A stretch of 22,698 nucleotides of DNA, taken from positions 1 through 22,698 of the IMG/VR virus record IMGVR_UViG_3300044730_000936; one strand, given 5' to 3'. This DNA is from a virus. Of the stretch, positions 3,876 through 22,510 are shown piece after piece. The position numbers were made by a program, and so were the translations under genes. Positions within the stretch are counted from its first letter, which is position 1. Each line of letters opens with the position of its first letter. The notes below the pieces were generated by a model that did not search any database, had not been told where the DNA came from, and saw only the letters and a program-made list of their open reading frames with translations.

Positions 3876-5303
3876 TTATAAGGTCACCGAATTCATCGTC
3901 AAAGAAATTCTTTGTTCCGACAAACTCAACAAACTTCCCTTTTTCGCAAAAAGTATGTCATTTCCGCTAGTGTTGCCCCAGTTTGGCAGAATTACTTCCG
4001 CCGAACCACCAGACGAATAACTGCCGCTTGCCGATGCATTTTCGACAGTAAAAGATGTTGCAGTTCTCTGTGTTATCGCCCTAGTCGTTGAGTTGAGCCC
4101 AGATGGAGTTATGCCAGTAACAGTTACCAAGTCGCCAACAACAAAAGCGTTGTTTGCTGTGTATGTAACATTGTTTCCAGTTTTGAGCGCATTGGTTATT
4201 GATGCCACTTTTGATTTTGATAGAGTCAGTGAGTCGACGGACCTAACAAATGGGTGTGAAAGTATAAATTGCAAAACATTGTTGTACCTCAATCTGTCTT
4301 CATTGAGGTTCGAAGAAACTGGGGAGTGCAACTGTTGCAAATTCTGTTTCAGCGTTGCAGTTATTTCGGCAACGTCGTATTGAGAAAAATATGAAATTGT
4401 CGCCTCTATGTAAAAGTCCAATATATATGGATTGAGAATCCCAATTTCCAAGCCAGCAACAGAACGATTTTCAATGTCTGAAAGAATATTTGATTTCTCT
4501 TGTGTTGTCAAAAGTCTTTGTGGACCGTAAGCAAATACGGCAACTTTTCCAGCGTCGTCTGGGTCGCTGAGGTCGTGTGAGCCGTTTGGGTCGGTGAGGT
4601 CATACACGGCGCAACGTGTTACGAGAGATGGGTTTTCAACCAAAACATAGTTTTGCAATTGTGATGCCGTAACAAGTGCGGAGGACATGGTGGCGAGATT
4701 CGCCACCCCCCTTTGCAAAAATTGGTCAACTGATTCGGCATCCTGCCCTTGAACAAAATTTCCAGCCGAAACAGCAGAAAATACGTTTGGCATGTATGAA
4801 ACTATTGACAATGTTGAGGAATTTGGGACGGTTGGAATTGTTCCAAGAGATTGCGCTGTGCATCCAACTGTTCCAACTGGAAGTGGGTCGCCGAGGGTGT
4901 TTGATGCGATTGTCAGTAATTCGTCAGTTTCAAAAACATATTGAATTTCTAGTTCGTCATCAATAATCAAAAATGCAACAAGAGTTCCTGCTGGTATTGT
5001 CGCTCCGTCGTTGGAGTTTGCAGTAAAAGTAACGTCCATTGTCGCCCTTGTGCCATCGTTATAGGGGGTTCCCATCATTTTTATGGCACCCAAAAAAATC
5101 GCATCTGGTATTCGATTGATTGCCCCTATATTCAAAGCCGACATATAGGCAAATGCCTGAAACATTGCATCTTCAATTGTTCCAACGCGCAAATCAAATC
5201 CAGGGAAAACAGTGCGCGCAACTTCAATTGAGTCAAGGTAAACCTGGACAGGACTAATGTCCAGGGGGGTTAAATCAACGTACTCGCGAAAATCTGCAGA
5301 CAT
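3876..5303 (-). CDS. Baseplate J-like wedge protein (gp6/gpJ family), 475 aa
   Basis: The N terminus (MSADFREYVDLTPLD, then RTVFPGFDLRVGTIEDAMFQ), the ATIPAGTLVAF strand and the GQDAESVDQFLQRGVANLAT segment are characteristic of the gpJ/gp6 baseplate wedge family, which forms the inner ring of the baseplate in contractile tails. It sits between the gp25-like gene and the gpI-like gene, the order seen in P2- and T4-like systems. Residues about 366-438 are an inserted beta module (VTYTANNAF...VTVTGITPSGLN...SGGSAEV) that is not part of the core family and closely resembles one in the connector protein. Spacing to both neighbours is only a few bases, so it is within one operon. Confidence 0.85.
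   Translation of the reverse strand: MSADFREYVDLTPLDISPVQVYLDSIEVARTVFPGFDLRVGTIEDAMFQAFAYMSALNIGAINRIPDAIFLGAIKMMGTPYNDGTRATMDVTFTANSNDGATIPAGTLVAFLIIDDELEIQYVFETDELLTIASNTLGDPLPVGTVGCTAQSLGTIPTVPNSSTLSIVSYMPNVFSAVSAGNFVQGQDAESVDQFLQRGVANLATMSSALVTASQLQNYVLVENPSLVTRCAVYDLTDPNGSHDLSDPDDAGKVAVFAYGPQRLLTTQEKSNILSDIENRSVAGLEIGILNPYILDFYIEATISYFSQYDVAEITATLKQNLQQLHSPVSSNLNEDRLRYNNVLQFILSHPFVRSVDSLTLSKSKVASITNALKTGNNVTYTANNAFVVGDLVTVTGITPSGLNSTTRAITQRTATSFTVENASASGSYSSGGSAEVILPNWGNTSGNDILFAKKGSLLSLSEQRISLTMNSVTL
3990..4208 (-). repeat. Inserted GITPS-type beta domain, copy in baseplate J
   Basis: Encodes residues 366-438 of the J-like protein. It matches the connector copy along its length: KVASIT, YTANN, VGDLVTVTGITPSGLN, RTATSFTVENASASGSYSSG, GGSAEV. 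It is a protein-level repeat; no long DNA identity is evident by eye. Confidence 0.65.
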
Positions 5304-5308
5304 ATCTA

Positions 5309-5608
5309 CTACCTATTGTAAATGAACTGGACGTTTACCGAGCCAGAATCGTCGCTTATTGATGAATTGACAGCAACTATTGACACCTCTGGAATGAATT
5401 TATTTGCTGCGAGCATAAGTTGTTCTGGGGAAACAACTGAAAATGACGGGTCTGCAGTGCCAAAATCTGGGGTGAGCGGAAGGGTGAATGGCTCAGTCAA
5501 AATGCAAATGCTGATTATTTGCTTAATGTAATCATCGCTCCCTTCTCTCAATTTGACTATTTCTCTTGTGTCAGTTGAAAATGATACTGGAAATTTGAAT
5601 GCGTCCAT
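5309..5608 (-). CDS. gp25-like baseplate wedge protein, 99 aa
   Basis: Length, position and sequence fit the gpW/gp25 family, a small wedge protein with a lysozyme-like fold that anchors the first sheath ring to the baseplate. Recognisable parts are the FSTDTREIVKLREGSDDYIK start, the EPFTLPLTPDFGT segment with the P-x-x-P-x-F-G core, and a C-terminal pair of beta strands (EVSIVAVNSSISD, VNVQFIYNR). It lies between the short OB-fold protein and baseplate J, as in P2 (V-W-J). The ATG at 5608 lies seven bases after the upstream stop. The N-terminal part is compact compared with gp25. Confidence 0.8.
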   Translation of the reverse strand: MDAFKFPVSFSTDTREIVKLREGSDDYIKQIISICILTEPFTLPLTPDFGTADPSFSVVSPEQLMLAANKFIPEVSIVAVNSSISDDSGSVNVQFIYNR

Positions 5609-5615
5609 AAGTTAA

Positions 5616-5987
5616 TCATGCCTCCGTTTGCTTATATGCGTCAAGAGCGTTGCTGGGCAATTCCAACAAAGTTTCTATTTGGTCTATGAGGGCATTAAAT
5701 TTTGCCACAGTGACGTATTTGTCTTTTTTTTGATTAAATGCTCCAAGAACATAGATTTCTTGAGTTTGATTGTCTATGAATGTGCATAGAACTTTGTCAT
5801 TTGTTTTTAATGTGTTGGTCACTGTATTCCCAACGAAATTTACGTTATTGAATGTGCAATTCAATTGTTTGACAAACACAACTGGGAGTCCATTAACAAC
5901 AGATTTGACTTGCCCAACAAAAACACCAGAGCCATTAAATGGGTGGGATGATGCTTTTTGTCTGTTTATTTGATTGCTTGGTTTCAT
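5616..5987 (-). CDS. Baseplate spike/gpV-like OB-fold protein, 123 aa
   Basis: Residues about 17-90 have the OB-fold layout of the gpV/gp45-type central spike base: FNGSGVFVGQVKSVVNGLPV, then a strand region with NVNFVGNTV, KTNDKVLCTFIDNQTQEIYV and LGAF. A C-terminal helix follows (AKFNALIDQIETLLELPSNA). It is shorter than typical spike proteins because no triangular beta-helix needle is visible, so the needle may be separate or absent. The gene overlaps the hub gene by four bases (ATGA). Position between hub and gp25-like gene supports the assignment. It should sit on the tail axis below the hub. Family assignment is from pattern and order. Confidence 0.68.
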   Translation of the reverse strand: MKPSNQINRQKASSHPFNGSGVFVGQVKSVVNGLPVVFVKQLNCTFNNVNFVGNTVTNTLKTNDKVLCTFIDNQTQEIYVLGAFNQKKDKYVTVAKFNALIDQIETLLELPSNALDAYKQTEA

Positions 5988-7180
5988 GGCGCTTTGCTTT
6001 CAAAAGTTGACGTTCGTTGAACAGATATTAGGCCTTCCACTTCAGACCACGAAACAGAGCCAGGGTAAATTTTCCCAACTTCTATTTGCTTTATCTTTTT
6101 TTCTTGACGTGGCGGAGTGGCAAATTTTATGTTTACTGGACTTGGGCTTAATTCTTCAAAGTCAACACCAGTAATTAAAAAGTCGTCCGTAAACCATGGA
6201 ATTGAGCCAACATTGACGGTCATTCCTGGCCTTAGGCGAACGCCATTTGTTCTATCAACAATACACGAGCCATCACCCTCCATGGGGTCGTTTTCTGACT
6301 TGTGCATGCTTGGCAGCCCATGAAGAATAAATCTATTGTCTGCTTTTCCACTAACAATTCGTGGCGGATAATGAAGATAAGTCAATCGTCTAGTTATGTC
6401 ACTATATGTCTGATTTTTTGCATTGAATTTTTTATGTATATACGAATCGTGACCCCACGAATACATCAACCACTGCTGAGAACCAAAAAATAAAGTTCCA
6501 TCAGATTCAAAAATCACAAAAGGATTTTTGTTTTCATCTTTGGATTCTCCAGCAAGTTTTTCTAAAACGTTCCACAGCGAATCAGCGACATTGTCACCGT
6601 CTGCTTGTGTTATTTGCCTTGTTGCTGATGTCTTTTGAGCAACACATTTCAAGCCATATTTTTTTGCTGCATTCTGCACAAAATCAGTACCAGTACCTTT
6701 TACAACACCAGGGTTTCTGTCTCTTTTCATTTGCTGAATTGCTTTTGTGTAACACTGAACGCGAACAACTGGAGAATTTCCTTGGCTTTGCTCAATTGTC
6801 ACATCTGCTATTTCCATGAAATAACCCACATACGAATTCGATGCCCATGATGCGGCATTACTTACTAGGGTCTCTGCTCCTGGAGCGGAAAAAGTGTTAT
6901 GACTTCTATATATTATGGTTTGCCCAGGCTGAAAATAATTTTGAAGCGTTAATTGCAATCCTGGGTCAATTACAGAAAACGTAACTGCGGTCGCTGCTGA
7001 TATTGAGTAACTAACCGTTACGTCAATTATTTGTTCTGATAATTGTGTTAATTGAACTGGCTTTGTTTCAGATGACGGGTATACATAAACAATTGGCACA
7101 TCTCTGCCAGAACCACGCGGAACAACACTCAAAGAAAATGTTTCTCCATTTGTGGCGTAATCTACTTGCGGGTTGCTCAT
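5984..7180 (-). CDS. Baseplate hub protein (gpD/gp27/XkdQ-like), 398 aa
   Basis: Contractile-tail hubs form the ring that links tail tube to central spike. Here residues about 40-170 have the first tube-like barrel (QIIDVTVSYSISAATAVTFS, then DPGLQLTLQNYFQPGQTI, a late strand with VRVQCYTKA), residues about 170-260 hold a helical/insert segment with SLWNVLEKLAGE, and residues about 260-370 form a second barrel (SDITRRLTYLHYPPR, GVRLRPGMTVNVGS, FLITGVDFEELSP). This order matches XkdQ-like hubs. It follows the spoke protein by two bases and is coupled to the gpV-like gene. No peptidase or lysozyme motif is visible in it. Confidence 0.75.
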   Translation of the reverse strand: MSNPQVDYATNGETFSLSVVPRGSGRDVPIVYVYPSSETKPVQLTQLSEQIIDVTVSYSISAATAVTFSVIDPGLQLTLQNYFQPGQTIIYRSHNTFSAPGAETLVSNAASWASNSYVGYFMEIADVTIEQSQGNSPVVRVQCYTKAIQQMKRDRNPGVVKGTGTDFVQNAAKKYGLKCVAQKTSATRQITQADGDNVADSLWNVLEKLAGESKDENKNPFVIFESDGTLFFGSQQWLMYSWGHDSYIHKKFNAKNQTYSDITRRLTYLHYPPRIVSGKADNRFILHGLPSMHKSENDPMEGDGSCIVDRTNGVRLRPGMTVNVGSIPWFTDDFLITGVDFEELSPSPVNIKFATPPRQEKKIKQIEVGKIYPGSVSWSEVEGLISVQRTSTFESKAP

Positions 7181-7182
7181 GG

Positions 7183-8937
7183 TTAGTCGTTCTTATACTC
7201 AATTACTTTGTCTGGTTGGCTAACCAAGGAGTCTTCTGCAAGACCGACTTCTTCTTCTGTTTCGTCTGGGTCATCTTCTTTTGGAACATATGGTTTATGC
7301 CTGAGAACTGGCATGCCAATTATTTGTTGTTTTTCAATCGGTATTTCTTGGAGTGTTATTTGCGCTTGTGCCCTTGTTATATCCATATCGGAGTTTCTGC
7401 GCTGTGCATTTATGGACAAATCTTGAATAACAAATTGAATTCCTCTTGCATTTCCGCTTTCGTCATACCTGAATTGATTTGTCAGTAATTTATCCAAACC
7501 GTAAAACATTACTGGGAATGGCGTTTGTGCCATTTTTTGTAGTTTAGAAATTTGTTCAGTTACTGGCGTATCGAGACCCTCACCAGTTGACGCTCCTCTT
7601 CCACTTGAGGAACCTGGAGAAGTATTATTTGCTATGAGAAAAGAAAATGAAATTTGCAATAGTTTAAAACTTTTCCAATCGACAAAAGGAAACCCACCAG
7701 ACCTATCTATTGTCACCCATTCTCCACCAAATCCAGAATAGGAAATTTCACTTGGTGCAAAATCAAATGGATACTGTTCAATTACATTTGTTGGTGTTTC
7801 GCCAGAGGCATCAAAACTTTTTGGATAAACTTGATACATAACTGGCTGTCTTGCATTGAATCTAATATTTTGCGAACGTAAGGCATCAGAAATATCTCGG
7901 TCAGTAAGAAATATATTTCTGCTTCTTTGAACTGTTATGTTTTGCAATTTGCCAGGTTCATAGCCTTCTGGCCCGTACCACGGCTGACCGTTTGAAAGTC
8001 TCCCTCCCGCATTATTTCTTGTTCCACCGCCATTTCCACCACCACCACCACCACCACCACCAGTTGTAATAATTGACTGGCCACCATCCCTTAGTAAGTC
8101 GTGTATTGTCTTTCCGCCAACTGAACGTATTGCATTTATTTGAGCCCCAGTATAACCTCTTTGGTCGAGCGTTTTGAATATTGCGTTAGTATCCATTTGT
8201 TTGGCAAGTGTGTCCCAAAGCCCAATATAAGAAGTTGGGTAGAGCACTCCTTCATAGAAAAAGTTGCTTTTTTCTCCAGTGCAAAGTTCAATTAATGATT
8301 GTCCAACAAATTCTTGAGCAAATTGAAAATATCTTGGGAAGGCACTTTTCAAATCTCCCAATGTAAGTATTTCTTTTTGCAAAGTCTTGCCCTGAGAATC
8401 TCTTGTGTGGAAAAACAATTTTTTACTGAGAGCAACATCAGAATTTTCCCCAAATTGCCTTGCTGCTTCAAGATAGGTATTCCACGCACTCATTAATTCT
8501 TGAGCAGTCATGGCTGGGTTTGGTTGAGTCGATGTCGAAATTCCTATTCTTATCCCTTGTCCAGTTGATGTTCTTTGCCCGTCAACCACTCCCCTGTTGG
8601 TAAAAATTGGCCTTGCGCCTGTAGAAACTGACGTTGCTCTGTCAACCAAAAATTTTTCATCTCCACAAAGTTGTGATGGAAGAGATTCATTGTCTCCTCC
8701 AAAAATCATTTTTTCGCATCCTTTAAACACTTCCAAAAAATAAAATGAGTTGCCGATTCTTTTATATGCGCTGTCATGTTTGTGCCAAACAACAACTCCA
8801 GCACCAGAACTCCAACCATGTTTTTCCAATATTGACGCTCGAACATTTCTACACACAAAATCTGTTTCAAAATAATGAACGTTTTGTCCATCTTCTGTTC
8901 TATTCAGAACTCTTGGGGGCCTTAATCCAGTAGTCAT
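7183..8937 (-). CDS. Baseplate spoke/LysM-like protein with long N-terminal extension, 584 aa
   Basis: The C-terminal part (about residues 365-545) resembles baseplate proteins that precede the hub (XkdP/gp53-like): YPFDFAPSEISYSGFGGEWV, RSGGFPFVDWKSFKLLQISF and PFPVMFYGLDK, followed by a strand-rich end and an acidic tail (EDDPDETEEEVGLAEDS). Residues 1-290 are a separate region that I do not recognise, with several cysteines and aromatic residues (WHKHDSAYKRIGNSFYFLEV). The two are joined by ten consecutive glycines at 293-302 and further glycines to about 306. At 584 residues it is much longer than ordinary spoke proteins. It lies between the tape measure and hub genes, the usual place. 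Its role in joining hub to wedge is inferred; the N-terminal role is unknown. Confidence 0.68.
   Translation of the reverse strand: MTTGLRPPRVLNRTEDGQNVHYFETDFVCRNVRASILEKHGWSSGAGVVVWHKHDSAYKRIGNSFYFLEVFKGCEKMIFGGDNESLPSQLCGDEKFLVDRATSVSTGARPIFTNRGVVDGQRTSTGQGIRIGISTSTQPNPAMTAQELMSAWNTYLEAARQFGENSDVALSKKLFFHTRDSQGKTLQKEILTLGDLKSAFPRYFQFAQEFVGQSLIELCTGEKSNFFYEGVLYPTSYIGLWDTLAKQMDTNAIFKTLDQRGYTGAQINAIRSVGGKTIHDLLRDGGQSIITTGGGGGGGGGNGGGTRNNAGGRLSNGQPWYGPEGYEPGKLQNITVQRSRNIFLTDRDISDALRSQNIRFNARQPVMYQVYPKSFDASGETPTNVIEQYPFDFAPSEISYSGFGGEWVTIDRSGGFPFVDWKSFKLLQISFSFLIANNTSPGSSSGRGASTGEGLDTPVTEQISKLQKMAQTPFPVMFYGLDKLLTNQFRYDESGNARGIQFVIQDLSINAQRRNSDMDITRAQAQITLQEIPIEKQQIIGMPVLRHKPYVPKEDDPDETEEEVGLAEDSLVSQPDKVIEYKND
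8036..8062 (-). repeat. Nine-copy CCA (GGT) trinucleotide tract encoding polyglycine
   Basis: Nine uninterrupted CCA triplets on the plus strand read as GGT glycine codons in the spoke protein. Length changes would stay in frame, altering linker length rather than switching the gene off. Confidence 0.9.
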
Positions 8938-8938
8938 T

Positions 8939-11900
8939 TTAACTCCTGTTATTCATTTCGTACGCTGCCCGTTCCAGTTCCGCTTTAATTTTTGCTGCTG
9001 CCTCATTGATTCCTATGCCAGTGACGTTCATGTTGATAGTCATTTCGTTCTTTTTTCCAGAAGTTGCAGTCGGCGCCATTGCTGAGATGTTCTTTGACGC
9101 TGGCATAACCGTATCACCCATTGGCGCTATGCCAGGACCTGGCACTACGTGAAGGTGTCTATTTATTGAGCCACCATGAAACTCCGCAAATCCACCGTTT
9201 CTTTCCACAATTGTCTTGTACATTCCAAGTTGATTTCCGACTAGGTCGTACGCCCTTCCAGTCATGTGGTCGGAGTTAATTGAGCCAAGATTGTTTGTCC
9301 TATAAGAAGATGTAACGAATCTTCTCCCAGAAATCATCGAATCCATTGCGCCATGTCTTGCCATTGTTTGTTGCAACCTTGACGATGTTGTGTCACCAAT
9401 TCCCTTCCCGCGCGGAGTTGATGTATCAGCGCCAATTCCAGCGGCTTTGAAAACTTCAGTAAGCGCTTCTTTCGACCACCATTCTGGATTGTTCGACCCG
9501 TCGCCAAAGAATTTGCCCATATCTTCAGTCACTTTCAATTGGGCTTCAAGCAATATTGATTCTTTTTCTAAATTATCTGTTGCCATGGCAAAGGCTTTTT
9601 TGTTCCCACTTACCGAGTCAAGTTCGCCAGTTATTCCAAATGAAGATAGGAAGTCAAAAGCATTTGAATATCCAGCACTTTTATAATCGCCACTAGAAAG
9701 AATATTCATAAACCTTTCTTGGTCGCCAGTTCTCATGTTCGCGAACACATTCTTTGCCTGTGTCATTCCCTCTGGCGACTTAAACGCCAAATTACTTTGC
9801 GCAAGAACTGCGCCAAGTTGTGGCGCCATGACAGACAAAACGTCTTTTTCTGCACCAGTTAGGAACTGCGTTACTGCCTGCCCAGTCATTCCAGTGAAAA
9901 ATTTGTTGCCCAATCCTCCCAGGGGATTCTTTTTGCCAGTAAGTGGGTTTATTTCTTGAAAGGCAAGTCCACCAGAAGTTCCAATTTGGCGCTGCATCTC
10001 GAAATATGCTTTTGTCGCATCTCCGCCATACATGTTGGTCAATTGCTCAAGATATGTACCGAAGACTAATTTTGCATCTTCAGTTGTAACTTCTTTGCTT
10101 GAGCGACCTTGAAAATCTGTGTAGAAATTTTTAATTATGTCGTTTAAGATTTGTGGGGCTTGTTGCACTTTTATTGCTTTATTGAATGTTTCGTCAAGAC
10201 GTTTAGTGAGCAATTCTGATACTGCTTGGTCAATTTGTTCTGAAGTTTTTACAACTGTTGCGCCAAGTTTTATCAATTGCTCATTAAAATCTTCTGTGCT
10301 GCTTGCAAGATTGACGTTCATTGTTTGCGCCAACTCAACTGCCTGCATTGTGGTCATTCCAGTAATTCTCGAAATCATTTCAGCACGACTTTTAACTAAT
10401 TGCGAGGCGTCTTTGTACGCTGTTGAATATGCTTCTGATTTCTTTGCAAATTCCTCTAGGTACTTTTGTTGAAGTTTGTCGTTTACTGCTTCGTCTTTTT
10501 TGAGCCTGTCTATGCCCATAAAACTCTTTTTTTGTCTCTTGGTCAACATTTCGTAATCTGCATCGCTCATTGCGCCACTTGCATACAATTCGTTGATTGT
10601 TGCGCCACGTTCTTTTCTTCGACGCTTATCGTTTTTGCCAAAAGTAAATTTTTCAAGCAATTGTTGCCCTGCATAAGCAACGTTGCCAACACCAAAACCA
10701 ACACCGCCCATAATCGCCGCCCCAGGAGCGGACAATAATCCAGCACCAGAAAAAGCCCCAATTGTCGCTCCGATTCCTGTTGAAAGCCCCACGACGTCCA
10801 TGTACCCCATGCTGCTGCCACCAGGACCACCACCCTTGGCGCCTTTATTTGCTATTTCTGCAAATTTCTTGAATTTGTCACCTGCCTTTTCAAGAGATTG
10901 GGCCATCGTTGTGTCTTTTTGCCCGCTTCCACGAGCACCGCTCTCAAGCAAAGTTGCTTGAACCATTATTTCGCCAGTTGTCGCACTGAAGAAATTGTCA
11001 ATCATTTTTTTTGCTTGTTTTGTTGCTTGTCTCATTTCATACATTGGGGCAGCAATCGCTCCAGTAATTAGTCCTATGCCAGCGCCAATAACTGCTCCAG
11101 CCGCACCAAATTCACTGCCAATTGCTGCGCCAGCCCCAGCACCGCCAAGCATTGCAAGACCAGCATCGTCAGTATTAAGCGCGAAAGTGCCGCCAGCAAG
11201 ACCAAGACCCATCTTTGGACTAAACATTGCAGTTGTTGCGGCCAAAGAAAGGCCAGCAGCGACATCTGGGTTGTCTATTCTGTCGGAGAGGCCAGCAAGT
11301 CCCATCGAAAGCGCAAATCCACCCATGCCGCCAAATGGTTTTCTTCCAGCCCTTGCATCAGCGTCTGCTTTATTTTGATTTTGGACGCCGTAACCACCCA
11401 TTCTGGCGAGACCTCTTGAAAATCTAGAGAATTGATTTGGGTTTCCACGTGGGTTGCCCCTAGTTGAAACTGGAGTAATCCGTGGCGTTGTGCCAGTTGC
11501 AGTTGTGGTTGTCGGCGGACCAGGATATGGGCTGGTTGGTCCAGTTGGATATCCACCGCCAGAAACTCTTAGGCGAGAAGAAGAGCGAAGAGATGCGGAT
11601 GCTTTTCCTAATGCTTGGTTAAACGACATCAATCCCTTTGTCGCTCGAGTTGATGAGGTTCCCAAACCACCAACAGAACTAGCGACTGAACCAGATGACC
11701 TCAGTCCAAGTGCGGATGAGGCTGTCGTTGCAACTGCAGGCGCTGCTGTCGCTGCTGCTTTTCCTAGTCCAACTTTTCCAAGAAGACCTTTTACGCTGAG
11801 GGCCTTTGATGCGGTGCCACCAGTTTTTTGCCACCATTCTTTTGCCCTTGTTCCAAGAATTCCGCTATTGGCTAGTCCGCCTATAATTGCCCCACCGACT

Positions 11901-13678
11901 GCCCCCTTGGGGCCAGCGAGTTTCCCAACTTTGTAGCCCTCTGCAGCGCCCTTGATTCCGCCCATAATGCTTACGCTGTTTGCCTTAACGTTCATGCTGT
12001 TAGTATTGACTTCGCGTTGAACCAGCGTTCCTCGAGTTGTCTTTAAGGCTCTTGAAATACCGAACAGGGCCATCATTGCTCCTCGTTCGCCAAACATCCC
12101 ACCAAGAAAATCAAACATTCTTGTAAACTGTTCGACCAATCCGCCAATTGCCCTAACGATTCTGCTAATAAATGGCAAATTGTTTACGATTACACGTTCG
12201 AATACGCTCAGCATCTTTAACAGTTTTACGATTGTTTCACCAAGTGTTGCGCCAAATTCCTCAAACGCTGGCTTATTTCTTTGAACGTTTCTATTAAATT
12301 CTTCTGAACGACTCTTTACTGCATCCCATATCGGCCGCCATGCTTTTCCAAATGACGACTCAATCACTCTTGCTCCGTCAATTAACGGTCTTAGGCCTTC
12401 AGAAATTTCTTTCCAACCAGACTTAAAGTTGTCCCACCATTCGCCAAGTCTTCTGAACATTCCAACTGATGCTGGCAAATACTCTCTAATTAGTTTTAGG
12501 TAAAAAGCAGAAACTTTTTCAGTTGCACTCACCAATGCGTTAACAAAACCGCCTCGTTTTTCCCAGCCAGAAATCGCACCAGTAGTTTGTTTGAGTGTGC
12601 GTGTGAAAATTTCGTAAATTCTTTGCAGACCATATTTTGCTTCTGGTAAAAATTGTTGTCCGAAGTCGGCAAACTGAACCCTGATTAGATTAAAGTACTT
12701 CTTTAACTGACCAACAAGCGTGTTGTTTACTGCATCCATCTGGCCAGTTACGCCACCAAGTTGAGCAAGTGTTCCGTCTTGGATGGCTTTCAGGAACTCA
12801 TCTCGTGTGTCAATTCCCTTCTTCTTTGCTTCCTCCATGGCTTTTTCCATGGCTGGGCCCATTTCTTTGGCGGCAGCAGTAATTGCGCCAAATCCCTTTT
12901 TCTTGTCCTGAAGCACGGCAACTAGCCCTGCCGCTTTTGCCAGACCTTCTTCGAGTGGCTGTCCAGCAGAAGCAAAGTCCGAAAGACCCTTGAGCAATGT
13001 TTTGCTTTGCCCAGTAAATCCGATTCTTGTTTTTGCTATTTCTCCGTATGCCTTGTTAAGTGCTTCTGCTCCAGCGCCAGCAAGTTGTGTATCCGCATGA
13101 AGACTGCGCATGTGCACCTGCGCTTGTCGCAATCCACTACCAAATTCTTTGTTTCCTCTGCCAGCGTAAGCAAATTGAGCAGCCTGCTGTTCTCGCATTG
13201 CTGCAGCAACAAGACCTATCGCAACTGCTGCGCCAGCAGCGCCAGCAGCCAGCCCCTTGAGCGCCACCTGGTATGCCTTTACGAGGAATTTCCCAGCAAC
13301 GAAAAGCGCGTGCACGCCAACCAACGCAATGCTCATTGCGCCAAGAGACATTGTCGCCATTTTCAATCCACCAACCAAGAATTTTTGGAGCACTCCTCCA
13401 AGTGAGCGCATCGTTTTATGCACGCCAAACATCACTCGTTCTAGTTGAATTGACGACTTACCAGTGCTCTTCAGTGCGGCGTTAGTTGCCGTAGCCGCAG
13501 CGGCAAGTCTTAGGAGGTCCTTGCTTGTTCCCTTTGATGCCTTACCAAGAATCTTGACTTTCCCAGCAGATTTTAAAGCGTGGTCGCCAAGTTCGTCGAC
13601 TCTTTCGGTCGACCGCGTAGGACCCTCGTCTCGCGTGGTCCTTACGTTAAGAACTATGTTTCTTACTGCGTCACTCAT
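8939..13678 (-). CDS. Tail tape measure protein with C-terminal M15-type peptidase domain, 1579 aa
   Basis: This is the longest gene, directly after the tail-chaperone frames, which is the expected tape measure position. The protein fixes tail length and is thought to be ejected with DNA. Residues 1-75 are polar. Residues about 103-163 are strongly hydrophobic (LVGGLKMATMSLGAMSIALV onward). A long helical part follows. Residues about 640-745 are low-complexity, rich in Ala, Ser, Pro and Thr. Residues about 783-877 are glycine/alanine-rich, like membrane-inserting gly-zippers. Residues about 1435-1515 hold SDHMTGRAYD and RHLHV, the metal-site signatures of M15/VanY-type peptidases. A final helix (NEAAAKIKAELERAAYEM) ends it. 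AGGA precedes the ATG at 13678. Confidence 0.92.
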   Translation of the reverse strand: MSDAVRNIVLNVRTTRDEGPTRSTERVDELGDHALKSAGKVKILGKASKGTSKDLLRLAAAATATNAALKSTGKSSIQLERVMFGVHKTMRSLGGVLQKFLVGGLKMATMSLGAMSIALVGVHALFVAGKFLVKAYQVALKGLAAGAAGAAVAIGLVAAAMREQQAAQFAYAGRGNKEFGSGLRQAQVHMRSLHADTQLAGAGAEALNKAYGEIAKTRIGFTGQSKTLLKGLSDFASAGQPLEEGLAKAAGLVAVLQDKKKGFGAITAAAKEMGPAMEKAMEEAKKKGIDTRDEFLKAIQDGTLAQLGGVTGQMDAVNNTLVGQLKKYFNLIRVQFADFGQQFLPEAKYGLQRIYEIFTRTLKQTTGAISGWEKRGGFVNALVSATEKVSAFYLKLIREYLPASVGMFRRLGEWWDNFKSGWKEISEGLRPLIDGARVIESSFGKAWRPIWDAVKSRSEEFNRNVQRNKPAFEEFGATLGETIVKLLKMLSVFERVIVNNLPFISRIVRAIGGLVEQFTRMFDFLGGMFGERGAMMALFGISRALKTTRGTLVQREVNTNSMNVKANSVSIMGGIKGAAEGYKVGKLAGPKGAVGGAIIGGLANSGILGTRAKEWWQKTGGTASKALSVKGLLGKVGLGKAAATAAPAVATTASSALGLRSSGSVASSVGGLGTSSTRATKGLMSFNQALGKASASLRSSSRLRVSGGGYPTGPTSPYPGPPTTTTATGTTPRITPVSTRGNPRGNPNQFSRFSRGLARMGGYGVQNQNKADADARAGRKPFGGMGGFALSMGLAGLSDRIDNPDVAAGLSLAATTAMFSPKMGLGLAGGTFALNTDDAGLAMLGGAGAGAAIGSEFGAAGAVIGAGIGLITGAIAAPMYEMRQATKQAKKMIDNFFSATTGEIMVQATLLESGARGSGQKDTTMAQSLEKAGDKFKKFAEIANKGAKGGGPGGSSMGYMDVVGLSTGIGATIGAFSGAGLLSAPGAAIMGGVGFGVGNVAYAGQQLLEKFTFGKNDKRRRKERGATINELYASGAMSDADYEMLTKRQKKSFMGIDRLKKDEAVNDKLQQKYLEEFAKKSEAYSTAYKDASQLVKSRAEMISRITGMTTMQAVELAQTMNVNLASSTEDFNEQLIKLGATVVKTSEQIDQAVSELLTKRLDETFNKAIKVQQAPQILNDIIKNFYTDFQGRSSKEVTTEDAKLVFGTYLEQLTNMYGGDATKAYFEMQRQIGTSGGLAFQEINPLTGKKNPLGGLGNKFFTGMTGQAVTQFLTGAEKDVLSVMAPQLGAVLAQSNLAFKSPEGMTQAKNVFANMRTGDQERFMNILSSGDYKSAGYSNAFDFLSSFGITGELDSVSGNKKAFAMATDNLEKESILLEAQLKVTEDMGKFFGDGSNNPEWWSKEALTEVFKAAGIGADTSTPRGKGIGDTTSSRLQQTMARHGAMDSMISGRRFVTSSYRTNNLGSINSDHMTGRAYDLVGNQLGMYKTIVERNGGFAEFHGGSINRHLHVVPGPGIAPMGDTVMPASKNISAMAPTATSGKKNEMTINMNVTGIGINEAAAKIKAELERAAYEMNNRS
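9134..9376 (-). other. M15/VanY-like peptidase domain within the tape measure gene
   Basis: Encodes residues about 1435-1515. S-x-H-x-x-G-x-A-x-D is present as SDHMTGRAYD (His1471, Asp1478), and the second metal-binding His comes from RHLHV (His1510). A preceding TSSYRT matches the usual arginine-containing strand. All expected zinc ligands appear present, so a peptidoglycan peptide-bond hydrolase is the best reading. Confidence 0.72.
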
Positions 13679-13731: not shown

Positions 13732-13938
13732 CTACCGATTTTTTTCCAGTTCGCGCCGTTCTCGCTCGCGGTCTTGCTCTACCACTTTAGCACAGGCCAT
13801 GAGGATGACCCATTCAATGTCGGTACAGCGCATTAAATCAAGAGGATTTGTGCCCCACAATTCGCCAAGTCTTGCGGCGTTGACGATTAAGGAATCCTCG
13901 ACTAGTTCGTCGAAGATTCCTTCATAGGGTCCTCTGTG
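13732..13938 (-). CDS. Tail assembly chaperone, second frame (-1 frameshift extension)
   Basis: The -1 frame relative to the chaperone gene is open from 13938, just after a TGA, to a TAG at 13734-13732, giving up to 68 residues. Its sequence (YEGIFDELVEDSLIVNAARL, then LGELWGTNPLDLMRCTDIEW and a charged RERERRELEKNR tail) looks like the T part of gpG/gpGT-type chaperone pairs, where a ribosomal frameshift makes a longer minor product. It has no convincing start of its own and overlaps the end of the first frame by 37 bases. If the shift happens at CCC/T (13929-13926), the fusion would be about 234 residues. The fusion itself is inferred; the open, protein-like frame is seen. Confidence 0.82.
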   Translation of the reverse strand, partial: HRGPYEGIFDELVEDSLIVNAARLGELWGTNPLDLMRCTDIEWVILMACAKVVEQDRERERRELEKNR

Positions 13939-14435
13939 TCAACCGTGTCGGAATATCCAGCAGCCTCAAGAATCGCAACTGCCGCAGACTCAACATGCGG
14001 GTCAACACCAAAGAAAGCGCGTACACAGTCTGGCTGTGGGCGTGTCGTTTCTGTCATTTGAAGAATGAGGTCGGAGGCAAATGTCAGTTCATTTCCATCT
14101 GAATCACGAACCTCTTGGTCGTCGAACATGATTCCGCGAGTTGTGTGTCCAACCACGAGACATGCAAAACGAAGTGCATCCATGCCATTTTTGGTGTCTT
14201 CGCCAGCAGACTTGCGCCACGAACGAATCTGATTTTGAGAGATGTTCGGGCTAATAATCAGTTTGACGTTCGGCCGCTCTGGAACGTTAAGGTGAACGAC
14301 TGGTCGCTCTACCTTCCGCTTAACGGCAGCAGTCAATTGGTCAAGGAGGGTGAGTTCACCTTTCTTCTCGACCTTTTCCTGCTTTGGGGCCTTCTTTGAT
14401 TCTTCTGGACTTGTGTAAAGTTCGTTGTTGCTCAT
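13902..14435 (-). CDS. Tail assembly chaperone, first frame (gpG-like), 177 aa
   Basis: Position between tail tube and tape measure, plus a second overlapping frame, identifies a tail assembly chaperone that binds the tape measure protein and recruits tube subunits. The N terminus is charged and lysine/glutamate-rich (SPEESKKAPKQEKVEKKGEL), followed by a strand with RPVVHLNVPERPNVKLIISP, a helix with NQIRSWRKSAGEDTKNGMDA, and an acidic C terminus (YSDTVDTEDPMKESSTN). ATG at 14435 is preferred to an in-frame TTG two codons earlier. No clear ribosome binding site precedes either. It ends at TAG 13902 when no shift occurs. Family-level identification rests on gene order and architecture more than on a single motif. 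Confidence 0.8.
   Translation of the reverse strand: MSNNELYTSPEESKKAPKQEKVEKKGELTLLDQLTAAVKRKVERPVVHLNVPERPNVKLIISPNISQNQIRSWRKSAGEDTKNGMDALRFACLVVGHTTRGIMFDDQEVRDSDGNELTFASDLILQMTETTRPQPDCVRAFFGVDPHVESAAVAILEAAGYSDTVDTEDPMKESSTN
13926..13929 (-). other. Candidate -1 frameshift point (CCCT)
   Basis: The window for shifting runs only from 13938 to the stop at 13904-13902. No canonical X-XXY-YYZ heptamer is present in the zero frame. The best re-pairing is proline tRNA moving from CCT to the overlapping CCC, which joins TEDP to YEGIF. This is a tentative site. Confidence 0.4.
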
Positions 14436-14463
14436 GGGCAAAAACTAGCACACAACAATGAGT

Positions 14464-14498
14464 CCAGTTGTAAATTGTTTAGTTAATTTACTTGCTGG
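14464..14498 (-). other. Two-part hairpin at the tail tube/chaperone junction
   Basis: CCAG/CTGG and GTAAATT/AATTTAC pair as two stems (4 and 7 base pairs) separated by a small internal loop, with an 8-base apical loop. The tube stop codon lies in the stem. No U-run follows, so partial termination or an RNA-stability element is more likely than a strong terminator. Confidence 0.45.
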
Positions 14499-14961
14499 CA
14501 ACCGTCGACACCGAGAAGGTGAGGGCGAAGGTCGATGGCGCACCTGAAGACGAGTCTCCGTCTGGCTCGGTAAGACCTACAAGAAGGGCCTTCGAGTAGA
14601 TACGGTCCAGACCTGGCTTCTTGAGGTCGCAGTCATAGGTCTCTACGGTGATGTCGTAGTAGGCCTTACCAACGTATTCGCGCAACTTGGCAACTTTTGC
14701 CGCCAAACCCGTCGCTCCGTCAGATGCAACTCTGTCGTCGTCGTAGTGAGCCGTCAGCGTAATGTCGCCGATGTCAAACGGAGCGCACAAAACGGTTGGG
14801 GAAGCCTTGCCGCCCTCATAGATTTTCTCTACCGAGGCGGTAATTTCTCCACCCGACACCTGCGCAAACAAGAAAGTCTCAAACTTGGGCAGGTCCGTGA
14901 TTTGCTGCTCGCCGTGTGGCGCAACCTTTGCAAGAACTTGCCTCTGTGATACTTTTGCCAT
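14488..14961 (-). CDS. Tail tube protein, 157 aa
   Basis: The tube is the inner cylinder through which DNA passes. This gene immediately follows the sheath gene with a 17-base gap, the standard order, and its size fits contractile-tail tube subunits. The sequence is strand-rich: PKFETFLFAQVSGGEITASV, the acidic DIGDITLTAHYDDDR loop, the KAYYDITVETYDCDLKK strand pair and a final SGAPSTFALTFSVSTVASK. The ATG at 14961 has a strong GGAGG upstream, consistent with high expression. A hairpin covers its stop codon. Family assignment is mostly from order, size and beta pattern. Confidence 0.85.
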   Translation of the reverse strand: MAKVSQRQVLAKVAPHGEQQITDLPKFETFLFAQVSGGEITASVEKIYEGGKASPTVLCAPFDIGDITLTAHYDDDRVASDGATGLAAKVAKLREYVGKAYYDITVETYDCDLKKPGLDRIYSKALLVGLTEPDGDSSSGAPSTFALTFSVSTVASK

Positions 14962-14978: not shown

Positions 14979-16457
14979 TTAGACGACCGACTTGGTCAGG
15001 TTCGACTTGATGATGTCGACTTCGATTCTGTCACCAACGCTCGACACTCTCAGGCCAACTCGCGCCTTGATGAGGCCGTCAGCCAACTGAGATGTTGGGT
15101 TAATGGAAGCATCGCACTTGACTGTGTAGCCAAAGTCGACTCTCTTGCCATTTGCGTCAAATGCCTCGAACAGCGCACCGCTGGCGCGAAGCGGCTCGAG
15201 AATTGCAAACAGTTTTGACTCAACTGCAGCAAACACAGTGTTGCGACCATCGATGACGCTGAAGATGAGGTCTTCAAGCGAACGGTTCGCATCTACGACG
15301 ACTTTGTTCACCACATCTTGCGAGGTGATGTAACGGAAGTTGGTCGTGTCTGGCGACACCGAACGTGCGCCGTACACGCGAATTGTGTTGTTGATGAGTC
15401 TGATTGCATTGACATATGCTTCGTCAAGGGCGTCTCCGTTTGACTTGTCGATGTCTGTTGCAACTCCGTTCACAAACGCGGCCACCGAGATGAGGCCAGC
15501 GCCTGGCTTGTGTGGACCAACTTGCGTATGGGCAACTGCTCTTTTTGCAGCAGCGTAACCCACTGGCGGAATCAAACGATTTACACCAGAAACGCTTGTT
15601 GGAACATACACCCATGGGTAGAAGTAAGCAACATGCTCGGCATTGCTATCCGCTGCAGCAAGAGTCTGGCCAGCAGTCTTTGCCTCGGCAATGGTGTCGT
15701 CAAACGCGCCATTGAGGAATGCGATTCTATTGTAGTTCTGTGCATGTGCGGCAAGGCCAGTTTGAACAGTCGTGTTTGACGACTCTGGGCACATCACAAC
15801 GCCAGTTCCGTAAGACTCAAGGAACAATCCAAGACCAGTGACGTAGTTTGCTGCCGTTACTGTTTCTTCGTTGTCGTCACCAGCGCTAAGCGCAGTGGCT
15901 GCTTGATTCTCTGGAAGTGGCGAGCCAGTTGCCTGGAGGTCAGTTGCAGTCACCAACTTCGAAGCGGATGCTGACGAGTTGATGCGACCAACAGCCTGTG
16001 CAACAGACGAGCAGTTGCCAGTGCTGTACAGCAACGTTCCTCCATCATAAATTTTGATGATGAACGTGCCAGTTGCAGTTCCTGGCTTTACTGTTTCAAT
16101 GGTGATGTCGCTGCTCCATGCACCAGGACCATTTGCGGTGATTGTCATCACGTTGTCGCCACCAACTCCGCCCTCGTTGAGGGTCAAAGAGCCAGTCGAG
16201 TTTCCAGAACCAGCAACGCGAGCGATGTAGGCTCTCGTGCCGCCTTCTTCAAAAAATGTTTCAACTGATGGATGCAGGTAGGAGTACGATGCATAACCAC
16301 CGTAGATTGCCTCGAAATCGGCGAGACTTGTCACCAACTTTGCTTCGTCAACTGGTCCTCGCGCGGCCTTACCGACGAAGAATGCCTGCGATGTCTCAAC
16401 TGCCGTTGCGGCACTTGGTCCAACTCTTACTGCTGTTTGTATGCTTACGCCTGGCAT
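14979..16457 (-). CDS. Contractile tail sheath protein, 492 aa
   Basis: The sheath contracts to drive the tube into the cell and defines this phage as myovirus-type. Characteristic parts are the N-terminal VGPSAATAVETSQAFFVGKA and GPVDEAKLVTSLADFEAIYG segment, with SVETFFEEGGTRAYIARVAG directly after; residues about 85-190 are a variable strand-rich insert. The conserved C-terminal domain contains NFRYITSQDVVNKVVVDANR, SLEDLIFSVIDGRNTVFAAV and ASINPTSQLADGLIKARVGL. The ATG at 16457 is preceded by GAGGAAGG. The length is typical. It sits between a small hypothetical gene and the tube gene. The coding sequence looks less AT-rich than the baseplate genes. Confidence 0.95.
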   Translation of the reverse strand: MPGVSIQTAVRVGPSAATAVETSQAFFVGKAARGPVDEAKLVTSLADFEAIYGGYASYSYLHPSVETFFEEGGTRAYIARVAGSGNSTGSLTLNEGGVGGDNVMTITANGPGAWSSDITIETVKPGTATGTFIIKIYDGGTLLYSTGNCSSVAQAVGRINSSASASKLVTATDLQATGSPLPENQAATALSAGDDNEETVTAANYVTGLGLFLESYGTGVVMCPESSNTTVQTGLAAHAQNYNRIAFLNGAFDDTIAEAKTAGQTLAAADSNAEHVAYFYPWVYVPTSVSGVNRLIPPVGYAAAKRAVAHTQVGPHKPGAGLISVAAFVNGVATDIDKSNGDALDEAYVNAIRLINNTIRVYGARSVSPDTTNFRYITSQDVVNKVVVDANRSLEDLIFSVIDGRNTVFAAVESKLFAILEPLRASGALFEAFDANGKRVDFGYTVKCDASINPTSQLADGLIKARVGLRVSSVGDRIEVDIIKSNLTKSVV

Positions 16458-17527: not shown

Positions 17528-17998
17528 TTACTCGTATCCCTCAACAATGTACTTCACAACTTCTTCTGCTGCCTCATCAACCCATCGTTCTGGAGCAAAC
17601 AGTATCGGACGTGCTGGCATTCTTTCCGTTCCGTACTGGTGGAATCTTGCTATTTTTCCAGTGAACTTAAATCTTGCGCCACGCATCATTCCTTCCAGTT
17701 TCGGACCTTGCGTGACTTGCCTGAACAATTCTCCAGTCTGCACGAGAATTGGAGCACCAGGAAAATTTTCAGTTTTCCAAGATGCGTATTCTGCATCAAG
17801 AGGCTTCCACCCACCAGATGGCAAACCCTGAGCAGTAAAATTTGAAATCATGTATGCCTTCAGACTTTGGTGAAGGCGTGGCCAAACTGGCCGCAAATCC
17901 TTCATTCTGGAGCGAACGTCTTTTAGATATTCGGCAGCATCTTCATCACCGTCGACGTCAATTTTTATTTCGACATTAAGTTCTGACGGTGTTGCCAT
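17528..17998 (-). CDS. Tail completion/virion morphogenesis protein (gpS/HK97 gp10-like), 156 aa
   Basis: The sequence has the family pattern of virion morphogenesis proteins: a helix with RPVWPRLHQSLKAYMISNFT, GLPSGGWKPLDAEYASWK, LVQTGELFRQV, then FHQYGTERMPARPILFAPER and a closing helix (DEAAEEVVKYIVEG). The W-x-x-L...L-x-x-T-G-x-L...H-x-x-G-x-x-x-x-P-x-R-P spacing is the most telling evidence. Such proteins act at the neck in joining tail to head. Its ATG shares a base with the connector's TAA (TAATG), so the two are probably translationally coupled. The next gene begins one base after its stop. Confidence 0.82.
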   Translation of the reverse strand: MATPSELNVEIKIDVDGDEDAAEYLKDVRSRMKDLRPVWPRLHQSLKAYMISNFTAQGLPSGGWKPLDAEYASWKTENFPGAPILVQTGELFRQVTQGPKLEGMMRGARFKFTGKIARFHQYGTERMPARPILFAPERWVDEAAEEVVKYIVEGYE

Positions 17999-18870
17999 TA
18001 GGCGATTCTTCTTCTGCTGTATTTCTTTATTTGTGCAAGTTCTGTTTCCAAAAACCCAGTTTGAGCCACGGCCACCCCTCTTGGATTTAGGTCCTTAACG
18101 CCAACAACATCATCGTGCATGTTTTGCATCTCGCGTGTAGCCGCACGCAAAATCATCAACTTAAACATTTTTATATTGTCTCCATCAAGTCCACCCCTAT
18201 AGGTGACCCTAATGATGTCGTTTGCAAATCCAGTGTATACATCTATTCCGTAACGACGAACTGTATAGTCGCTTCCATTCGCAGTTGCGGAGCCACCAGA
18301 AACATACGTTCCAGTTGCGCCAGAGGACGCAACAGAAAATGTGTTTGTGGCAACAGAGGTTATTACCTTTGCGTTCAGGTTGAGAGTTGATGGTGTTATT
18401 CCAGAAATCGTGACAGTCTGCCCAACGGTAAAACCATGGTTTGCGGCAGTGTATGTAGCCGTTCCGCTTGTTGCAGTCGCGGCAGTGATTGTCGCAATTC
18501 TTTTTACTGCCTCGCCGAGAACTTTATTCACCATTGTTGGTCCGTCGAGCACAACGCCAGAAACAGAAACAATCGGAGTGTTTCTTAGATAAATCGTGCT
18601 TGGCGGTGCAGCATATGTGATTATTCCATTGGGGTCAGAATCGCCAAGGCCCAAGCCTTGGTTGTAGAAATACGAACCCATTGGAACGTTTACGTGATTT
18701 GCCTCAAGGATGTGGGTTTCCCCAACGAATTCGGTCACCTCGACTGGTCTGCCAAGGTATGTTTCCATTTCGCTTTGTAAACCCTGAAGGATTATCTCGG
18801 CAGCGTCCTGCTGCCTCAGCGAAAGGCTAATATCCATGTATGTGGTGAGGTCGGCAAGTGTTACTATCAT
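17998..18870 (-). CDS. Head-tail connector/neck protein with inserted beta domain, 290 aa
   Basis: Residues 1-120 resemble head-tail connector (adaptor) proteins: helical N terminus (LADLTTYMDISLSLRQQDAA, LQSEMETYLGRPVEV), then strands around TIYLRNTPIVSVSGVVLDG. Residues about 200-290 return to the core with YGIDVYTGF, IIRVTYRGG and helices KMFKLMILRAATREMQNMHD and TELAQIKKYSRRRI. Between these, residues about 124-198 are an inserted module that closely matches one in the J-like baseplate protein. The ATG at 18870 has GGAGG eight bases upstream. It starts the virion gene block in this window; no capsid or portal gene lies just before it, which is unusual for phage gene order. Confidence 0.78.
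   Translation of the reverse strand: MIVTLADLTTYMDISLSLRQQDAAEIILQGLQSEMETYLGRPVEVTEFVGETHILEANHVNVPMGSYFYNQGLGLGDSDPNGIITYAAPPSTIYLRNTPIVSVSGVVLDGPTMVNKVLGEAVKRIATITAATATSGTATYTAANHGFTVGQTVTISGITPSTLNLNAKVITSVATNTFSVASSGATGTYVSGGSATANGSDYTVRRYGIDVYTGFANDIIRVTYRGGLDGDNIKMFKLMILRAATREMQNMHDDVVGVKDLNPRGVAVAQTGFLETELAQIKKYSRRRIA
18277..18501 (-). repeat. Inserted GITPS-type beta domain, copy in connector
   Basis: Encodes residues 124-198 of the connector: RIATIT, YTAANHGFTVGQTVTISGI, GITPSTLNLN, ATNTFSVASSGATGTYVSGG. It aligns over its length with the copy in baseplate J and looks like an independent exposed domain inserted between core strands. Confidence 0.65.
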
Positions 18871-19126: not shown

Positions 19127-19678
19127 TTATCTATCCTTATTTGGTGGTCGTTCGGTTTCGAAAGTGTCAACAGTTCCTGCTGGGGCTTCAATTGGAACCC
19201 ACGCTCTAGAGTACTTGTGTTCAGAAATGTTGAGTTTTTTTATCAATGTTCCGTCGAGAAGAAGATGCAATTCGTCATATTTCATTGACAGCAACTTGTC
19301 CATGTCCTCTTCGGTGTATTTGTTGCTGTAGACAAGGTCCCTAACTATTTTTGCAAGTTTGTGAGCAACAAGATTTCCCCTACCCCTATTAAGGCGAATA
19401 TGCATCATTGCTGCTTCCAGGGAGTCGCAATCAACAAAAACGCACGGAATCGTTTTTATTTTTTTAGCAAAATGTTCGTTTTCCTTAACGAGCATCCACC
19501 TGTGGTAGCCATCAATAATCGAGTTGTCTTTCCTGCGTACAAGTATCGGGAAAATGAATCCAAACTCATTAAGCGAAGCAGAGAGAGTAAGCAAATCTGG
19601 CCGCAAAATATGGTTGCAGTGCCAGTCTCCTTTTTTGAGTTGGTCAACTTCAATATTTTCAATTTTCAAAGATGTCAT
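19127..19678 (-). CDS. ParB-like nuclease-fold protein, IbrB-like, 183 aa
   Basis: The N-terminal domain has the ParB/Srx-like pattern: an initial VDQLKKGDWHCNHI, LSASLNEFGFIFPILVRRKD, then SIIDGYHRWML at residues 53-63 in place of the ParB GxRR box, and IRLNRGRGN at residues 94-102. The C-terminal third has WVPIEAPAGTVDTFETERPP and ends NKDR. The DGYHRW motif and partnership with a PAPS-reductase-like gene match IbrB-type proteins, known as regulators and putative nucleic-acid-acting partners of IbrA. Its ATG overlaps the preceding stop by four bases. Whether it cleaves DNA, binds CTP/ATP, or regulates transcription cannot be decided from sequence. Confidence 0.8.
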   Translation of the reverse strand: MTSLKIENIEVDQLKKGDWHCNHILRPDLLTLSASLNEFGFIFPILVRRKDNSIIDGYHRWMLVKENEHFAKKIKTIPCVFVDCDSLEAAMMHIRLNRGRGNLVAHKLAKIVRDLVYSNKYTEEDMDKLLSMKYDELHLLLDGTLIKKLNISEHKYSRAWVPIEAPAGTVDTFETERPPNKDR

Positions 19679-20817
19679 GTTTCCTCGCTGTTTATTTCTG
19701 ATGCTTCAATTTCCCTAACTGAATGAACTCTAGTTTTTGGCCCAATTGGGCTTGCAGAAATGCTTATCGCTAAAGAATGCATGAAAAGTGAATTTATCAA
19801 CGAATAAATCGTGTATGACTTTGGGTCAGCAACGTGTTTGCGTCGATACTCAGCAACAAATGCTTTTGCTCTCTGTTTTTTTGACTGGCCAATCATGTAG
19901 TCCTCTATGAACTCTTTTGCGCCGTCAAAACCCATCTTTGCGTATTTCTCGATTACTGCCTCAAGATTAAAGACTGGCCAATATCTGTACTGTGCGTCTA
20001 TGTACGGGAAACACTCAACGAGCCTGTCGTAAAATTCTGGTTCAGTGGCAACTACGTCCCCAATTCTCCTAATTGCAACAGAATGCAGTGGTATGCCAAC
20101 TCGGGTATTGCTGCCAGTTATTGCCGCAGAATCGTAATACTCGCAGTAGCGCTCTCCATGCTCTTCAATGATGAATTTGAAAACATCGGCGGCTTGCCAG
20201 TCGTAGATGACTTTTGCAAATTTCATTGGCATGCCTTTTTTCCCCTTGTATGGGGTGACTATGTAGTTTTCGTTCAATTTCTGAACCAATGACCTATAGC
20301 GAATCATTGATTCATTTGCTCGAACACCAGTGACGAAGGCAACACTTCCGTTCTTGCCCTGCATTGTGTAGTAATCAATACTTTCGTTTACTTCTTTTTC
20401 GCTTGTTATTCCAAAATCTTTTGGCGTTATCGCAAACGGTGGAATTTCCCTGATTAAACGGCCTTCTTTTTGGCGCTTTTCACTCCACAAAACAACAGAC
20501 TGTCGTCTGCCCAAAACCCATATCTCCGAGCCAGAGGGAATGCAGTACCACTCCATGTCAACCCATGGTTGTTGCCTGATGTAGTTGACATAGTCAATAA
20601 CCATCGGACTGACCATTTCTTCATCGCGAAAAATGACCTTAACTGGCCCAAGCCCACGTTCCTCATGTACTTCTTTTGCCAAAAGCAAAACCGCAGTTGA
20701 GTCCTTTCCTCCAGAGAACTGAACGCAAACCGTGTCAAACGTGTCGTAGACGTGACGTATCCGCTGGCGCGCCGCTTCTACGCAATTGATATCAAGAAAT
20801 AGTCTCTGTCGTGTCAT
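19675..20817 (-). CDS. PAPS reductase-like PP-loop protein, IbrA/DUF3440-like, 380 aa
   Basis: Residues 33-41 hold the PP-loop FSGGKDSTA used to bind ATP-type substrates. FRDEE (63-67) and GVRANESMIRYRS (164-176) follow, as in PAPS-reductase-like proteins with an extended C terminus. The cysteines are at about 12, 31, 92, 225 and 269, and the C-terminal ECGxH motif of true sulfonucleotide reductases is absent, so sulfate reduction is unlikely. DUF3440/IbrA-type proteins and DndC share this fold. The gene lies between two ParB-like genes with four-base overlaps on both sides, so all three are probably made together. Likely chemistry is ATP pyrophosphate cleavage/adenylation of an unknown substrate; this is inferred. 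Confidence 0.82.
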   Translation of the reverse strand: MTRQRLFLDINCVEAARQRIRHVYDTFDTVCVQFSGGKDSTAVLLLAKEVHEERGLGPVKVIFRDEEMVSPMVIDYVNYIRQQPWVDMEWYCIPSGSEIWVLGRRQSVVLWSEKRQKEGRLIREIPPFAITPKDFGITSEKEVNESIDYYTMQGKNGSVAFVTGVRANESMIRYRSLVQKLNENYIVTPYKGKKGMPMKFAKVIYDWQAADVFKFIIEEHGERYCEYYDSAAITGSNTRVGIPLHSVAIRRIGDVVATEPEFYDRLVECFPYIDAQYRYWPVFNLEAVIEKYAKMGFDGAKEFIEDYMIGQSKKQRAKAFVAEYRRKHVADPKSYTIYSLINSLFMHSLAISISASPIGPKTRVHSVREIEASEINSEET

Positions 20818-22500: not shown

Positions 22501-22510
22501 GGCAAAGATA

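Follow-up and report, generated by a model that had tools for sequence, protein, structure and literature searches.

The tape measure protein of an uncultured contractile-tailed phage carries, close to its C terminus, a domain that is best described, from its sequence and predicted fold, as a divergent M15A-like member of the LAS zinc peptidases, and that is probably (we put this at about 0.8) a virion-borne peptidoglycan peptidase serving as the entry lysin. The predicted active site is invariant among the aligned relatives, the domain is retained in its clade with a fold family in common with known LAS proteins, and the baseplate hub encoded nearby has no recognisable hydrolase. The analysed DNA, referred to below as the window, comprises 22,698 bases and is the entire virus record IMGVR_UViG_3300044730_000936.

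Tail gene module and layout of the tape measure protein

Tail genes follow each other in the order sheath, tube, chaperone, tape measure, hub/baseplate (Table 1), which is that of the sheathed actinophages Cantare, Gray and Brent. Because the order matches these modules, the longest ORF was identified as the tape measure gene; its product matched no curated Pfam tape measure family, with Peptidase_M15_3 as the sole listed match at an E-value of 1 or less, and the annotated tape measures of Cantare, Gray and Brent are likewise without a Pfam tape measure family match. The closest isolates by sheath are phages of Brevibacterium, Gordonia and Arthrobacter, at identities of 38% or less. Compared by hhalign, the hub reached a probability of 99.7% with the hub family of actinophages (residues 17-288 of Gray gp52) and of 99.3% with Cantare gp26, and a domain scan returned no hydrolase match in it. 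Judged from the nearest tail modules alone, the host is probably actinobacterial.

By tblastn in a collection of 50,697 phage records, no close cultured relative was found for either the tape measure or the peptidase domain. Searches of cellular genomes gave two matches only, both on contigs within environmental MAGs of differing labels; these are probably phage contigs that were binned in, and they were left out of host assignment. In BFVD, there were two strong matches, both to proteins of uncultured phages, one of which (A0A6J5RBP0) is named 'Tape measure protein'. The family is already present in public databases, as far as we found without a described function.

Table 1. Features of the tail module and of the tape measure protein (positions of the window; residue numbers of the tape measure protein).
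Feature	Position	Strand	Basis
Tail sheath	14979..16457	-	PHROG 23 tail sheath, E 1.3e-40
Probable tail tube protein	14488..14961	-	position between sheath and chaperone, cf. Cantare, Gray
Probable tail assembly chaperone	13902..14441	-	position alone (cf. Cantare, Gray, Brent)
Tape measure protein, 1579 aa	8939..13678	-	longest ORF, between tube/chaperone positions and hub/baseplate genes
Hydrophobic segment, residues 101-162	13193..13378	-	hydropathy scan
Hydrophobic Gly/Ala-rich segment, residues 852-880	11039..11125	-	hydropathy scan
LAS/M15A-like peptidase domain, residues 1418-1523	9110..9427	-	conservation, M15_3 profile match, model and fold search
Arg1453, candidate transition-state residue (role inferred)	9320..9322	-	79/79; aligned to 1LBU R138
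His1471, predicted zinc ligand 1	9266..9268	-	invariant 79/79; aligned to 1LBU H154
Asp1478, predicted zinc ligand 2	9245..9247	-	invariant 79/79; aligned to 1LBU D161
Glu1499, candidate catalytic residue (role inferred)	9182..9184	-	79/79; aligned to 1LBU E183
Arg1507, replaces classical M15 acid 3 residues before last ligand	9158..9160	-	79/79; 1LBU has D194
His1508, first His of HxH, candidate catalytic residue (role inferred)	9155..9157	-	79/79; aligned to 1LBU H195
His1510, predicted zinc ligand 3, second His of HxH	9149..9151	-	invariant 79/79; aligned to 1LBU H197
Variable low-confidence linker, residues 1524-1545	9044..9109	-	low conservation, pLDDT under 50
C-terminal segment with predicted helix, residues 1546-1579	8942..9043	-	model
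Baseplate hub homologue without C-terminal hydrolase	5984..7180	-	hhalign to actinophage hubs
Baseplate protein (wedge)	5309..5608	-	PHROG 5026 baseplate protein, E 6.4e-9
Baseplate J-like protein	3876..5303	-	Pfam Baseplate_J, E 3.1e-10

Along the tape measure, the hydrophobic segments are followed by the peptidase domain, the variable linker and the C-terminal helix, which is predicted with moderate confidence to span residues 1557-1578 and includes the conserved Arg1578. By analogy with T5 pb2 (PMC10038345), residues 1546-1579 are likely to be a hub anchor.

Three further observations were made in the window. The gene directly after the tape measure (7183-8937, minus strand) encodes a 584-residue protein that had no Pfam match and no match to the compared actinophage hub-type proteins, and sits where the related actinophages have a small LysM protein. 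Pfam E1_FCCH was matched twice (E about 5e-5, below the cut-off), in residues 384-435 of the Baseplate_J protein and in residues 141-196 of a protein upstream of the sheath (17998-18870, minus strand); these two proteins otherwise differ, and the likeness of the two copies in sequence suggests a mobile domain. Within 19127-22560 (minus strand), a PAPS-reductase-like gene (19675-20817) is flanked by two genes for ParB N-terminal domains (19127-19678, below the cut-off, and 20814-21608), with a RuvC-like gene nearby (21922-22560).

Predicted active site, fold and family of the peptidase domain

The preliminary description had assigned the interval 9134-9376 to an M15/VanY-type peptidase domain. 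A plus-strand reading of this interval was rejected, as it is interrupted by stop codons; the coding strand is the minus strand, on which residues 1435-1515 span 9376-9134. Conservation was profiled over 66 complete relatives aligned with the tape measure of the record, and the 106 residues from 1418 onwards form the stretch of highest mean conservation in the protein (0.77, vs 0.43 for the rest). Scanning viral contigs with the domain as query yielded 153 confirmed stretches, the best 80 of which were kept; with the alignment as query, the scan yielded 369. Single residues were compared over 79 distinct aligned sequences.

The ligand pattern H-(x6)-D ... H is present, and its last histidine closes an HxH motif (His1508-Leu-His1510). 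The three putative metal ligands (His1471, Asp1478, His1510) occur at the residue numbers originally given for them, and no homologue among the 79 has a changed ligand. Further residues invariant in 79 of 79 sequences are Arg1460, Asp1470 and His1501. As judged from the alignment, His1508 and Glu1499 are the candidates for catalytic residues.

Of 46 homologues, 45 matched Peptidase_M15_3, the only family with consistent matches. The match is weak, with 17.4 bits for the domain of the record against PF08291 and 13.3 for the whole protein, below the cut-off of 23.2, a value that was passed in none of 14 related long contigs. The domain was not matched by any NCBIfam family, and in PHROGs there were only weak matches to an 'endolysin' family, for 29 of 63 members (best E 0.0032). 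When the family profile was compared with PDB sequences, the best match, at an E-value of 0.087, and the sole M15 enzyme found was 1LBU, the Zn D-Ala-D-Ala carboxypeptidase of Streptomyces albus (M15A). This alignment pairs the three predicted ligands of the tape measure with H154, D161 and H197, the zinc ligands of that structure, and three further residues with their 1LBU counterparts (Table 1).

Two AlphaFold models of the domain were built, from 46 and 63 sequences, the second with a core pLDDT of about 80-94 and a pTM of 0.70. They contain one helix, then strands (four in the core), then a second helix. In VIA-align searches, 1LBU was the top match for the first (Z 7.8, rmsd 3.7, 91 aligned) and the second model (Z 7.4, rmsd 3.5, 92 aligned), followed by Hedgehog domains and then by wall peptidases such as LysECD7, ChiX, VanY (5hnm, Z 5.1-5.8) and VldE (Z 4.8-5.5); Ply500 was also among the rows for the first model. 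Fold scores are middling (Z 7.4-7.8 with predicted models; best Foldseek E 0.012), but we assign the fold despite Z-scores under 8 because the top rows are uniformly LAS (all of the top 33 for the second model) and agree with the sequence match and with the ligands. The view that a zinc peptidase domain of the LAS/M15 kind lies inside the tape measure is thus borne out, with the predicted models pointing to a LAS zinc-peptidase architecture and 1LBU ranking first by both profile and fold.

The more specific label 'VanY-type' had to be given up. In the M15C endolysins, EndoT5 among them, the catalytic Asp (D130 in EndoT5) lies three residues before a ligand (H133; PMC10487532), and the corresponding VanX motif is E-x-x-H (PMC3927764). 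The Glu or Asp that VanY/VanX and the M15C enzymes (M15B-D) have at this position is absent from the tape measure domain, where an Arg stands in all 79 sequences. HxH is common in D-Ala-D-Ala metallopeptidases and occurs in 1LBU and MepA (PMC3927764). The domain has the HxH, Arg1453, Glu1499 and His1508 in common with 1LBU, though not its Asp194. It is extremely unlikely that the domain is a classical VanY-type (M15B) D,D-carboxypeptidase: the LAS fold and the H-D-H ligands are shared, but the acid is replaced by Arg next to an HxH, 1LBU outscores VanY by fold, no other M15 enzyme was recovered by sequence profile, and no VanY Pfam match was seen. We call the domain divergent M15A-like because the acid is absent, the HxH is present and 1LBU is the nearest known structure.

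Retention in the clade and position of the tail lysin

To avoid the bias of a domain-based search, relatives were also gathered via the sheath gene and via the hub gene. Similarity to the tape measure was found in 70 complete distinct frames, and 68 of these contain the domain. The two without it (439 and 337 residues) resemble N-terminal portions of tape measures interrupted by a frame break, so that the domain is present in all 68 complete distinct unsplit tape measures, including those found through sheath or hub. The split tape measures are those of L045/L137 (439 + 1001 residues) and L028/L112/L202 (337 + 1189 residues); the split may reflect an error in sequencing, a true interruption of the frame or another cause.

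Across 14 long contigs from the clade (47-172 kb), M15_3 was matched nowhere but in the tape measure domain, and Amidase_2, M23, NlpC/P60, CHAP and phage lysozyme were not found. A separate SLT protein is encoded in six of the 14 and a GH25 protein in one, at other loci, which makes a separate lysis enzyme likely in about half of these contigs; the tape measure domain is not the obvious endolysin. One sub-threshold GH19 match lies inside a 1634-residue frame of tape measure length. For the window, it had been noted that no other lytic domain is visible, and this holds for the ORFs scanned at the sensitivity of Pfam and PHROGs.

Some distant relatives have longer hubs, and no second hydrolase was found in the six that were scanned. 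One such hub, of 974 residues (L293:8929-11850), carries a carbohydrate-binding CBM_4_9 domain (E 9.7e-8), and in several other relatives the hubs are lengthened to 560-800 residues without a recognised domain.

Among related actinophages, the recognisable tail lysin differs in class and position. The Cantare tape measure contains an M23 peptidase (residues 1165-1262 of 1366, 66 bits), and its hub, 285 residues long and homologous to that of the record, is without a hydrolase; in LuckySocke, NlpC/P60 is found in the protein at the tape-measure position, and the hub again has no hydrolase. Gray and GMA6 carry NlpC/P60, and Brent, Bumble, Abba, DrYang and Bolt007 carry CHAP, at the hub C terminus, all with tape measures without a recognisable hydrolase. 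DalanDe has no hydrolase in tape measure or hub and a separate small gene annotated 'hydrolase'. A recognisable tail lysin is located in one place only, hub or tape measure, in ten out of ten phages that have one there, including the record, in a survey that was small, hand-picked and blind to divergent domains. A tape measure without a Pfam hydrolase is weak evidence in itself, because those of TM4 and T5, both with reported muralytic activity, also show none.

Proposed role and comparison with known systems

We infer zinc binding, catalysis and a peptidoglycan substrate for the domain; its use at entry is modelled on the layout and precedents of T5 and TM4, as are its place at the tail tip and its order of release. 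The domain would lie packed in the tail tube at its hub end, fixed there by the C-terminal helix, and would be the first part to leave the tube upon tail contraction and ejection of the tape measure. It could then cut peptide bonds of the peptidoglycan next to the tube tip, a local cut that would let the tube or the DNA reach the membrane. The preliminary description had already proposed local cutting of the wall during entry, which remains likely; its mention of cross-links was too specific, as the bonds cut by characterised LAS relatives include D-Ala-D-Ala, L-Ala-D-Glu and others.

For the entry-lysin reading speaks that the top neighbour in structure and sequence is a peptidoglycan carboxypeptidase and that ChiX, Ply500, LysECD7 and VldE were matched as well; the sub-threshold M15_3 score, the middling fold scores, the invariant Arg at the acid position and the many Hedgehog matches speak against it. 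The last two of these would fit a LAS domain with little or no catalytic activity, which would bind peptidoglycan or zinc and act in tail assembly or targeting, since the Hedgehog domains, frequent among the top fold matches, share the LAS fold without proven peptidase activity (PMC4102407). We consider such a domain unlikely, as the three ligands together with Arg1453, Glu1499, His1501 and His1508 are invariant in all 79 sequences, as for a selected active site, and the LAS enzymes 1LBU and VldE, which also have an HxH, are known to be active. Less likely still is a protease with phage or host proteins as substrates, for instance in self-processing of the tape measure during tail maturation: in lambda and T5, morphogenesis involves cleavage of the tape measure (PMC10038345), and the domain adjoins a flexible linker, but its nearest relatives are peptidoglycan peptidases, and syntenic phages carry M23 in the tape measure (Cantare) or NlpC/P60 in the protein that takes its position (LuckySocke), classes that commonly target peptidoglycan.

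Beyond the entry-lysin reading, we tentatively suggest, with somewhat less than even confidence, that the domain represents a tape-measure-specific LAS subfamily of an uncultured clade of contractile phages, with a rearranged site (HxH and Glu, and Arg in place of the acid), which replaces the hub lysin of related actinophages; the entry lysin, single in the tail, would have moved between hub and tape measure and changed its class several times.

A tail-located entry enzyme in the tape measure is a known phage strategy; here the enzyme is of a divergent type, and the phage group has no close cultured relatives. The finding is well supported and of an expected kind, and provides a likely entry enzyme for a group of uncultured phages with a tape measure that had no match among the phage records searched. 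Most worth following are the altered catalytic position, which makes the domain suited to studying which residue is the catalytic one in LAS peptidases, and the exchange between hub and tape measure, which offers a comparative test of why the tail lysins of contractile phages sit on one or the other.

Among enzymes, 1LBU is the closest match by profile and fold, sharing the H-D-H ligand order, the HxH and the counterparts of Arg138 and Glu183; it differs as a stand-alone enzyme with Asp194 where the tape measure has Arg1507, and the overall similarity is weak. Among tape measures, that of TM4 contains a peptidoglycan-hydrolysing motif (motif 3), which aids the infection of stationary cells and is not essential (PMC1796659). 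VldE, a LAS L,D-endopeptidase of the MT3 type, has the LAS fold and carries D372 at the third position before its last ligand, ahead of its HxH (PMC11667670). The likeness to TM4 consists in a hydrolysing motif within the tape measure and in the match of VldE to the domain model, whereas the tail of TM4 is non-contractile and VldE retains the Asp; hhalign of the domain alignment against TM4 gp17, with a single sequence on one side, gave nothing in the MT3 region.

The closest worked example is T5 pb2, in which the metallopeptidase motif is preceded by a hydrophobic stretch and followed by a C-terminal helix, bound in the hub as a trimer; on opening, the C-terminal fragment of pb2 leaves first and would digest peptidoglycan (PMC10038345). 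Compared by layout alone, the two tape measures share the order of hydrophobic stretch, muralytic metallopeptidase and short C-terminal helix, hub-bound in pb2, while pb2 differs in that its motif is short and, per record annotation, M14-like, in its proteolytic split after Arg1127 and in the Gram-negative host; Pfam detected no LAS domain in pb2, only TMP_N, TMP_C and a weak unrelated match. Gray and Brent share the tail module, the homologous hub and a tail-borne peptidoglycan hydrolase with the phage described here, and differ in carrying it, as NlpC/P60 or CHAP, on the hub C terminus. Cantare, also a sheathed actinophage, has in common the tail gene order, a LAS-group peptidase near the C terminus of the tape measure and a short hub without hydrolase; its peptidase is of the M23 class, vs the M15-like domain here.
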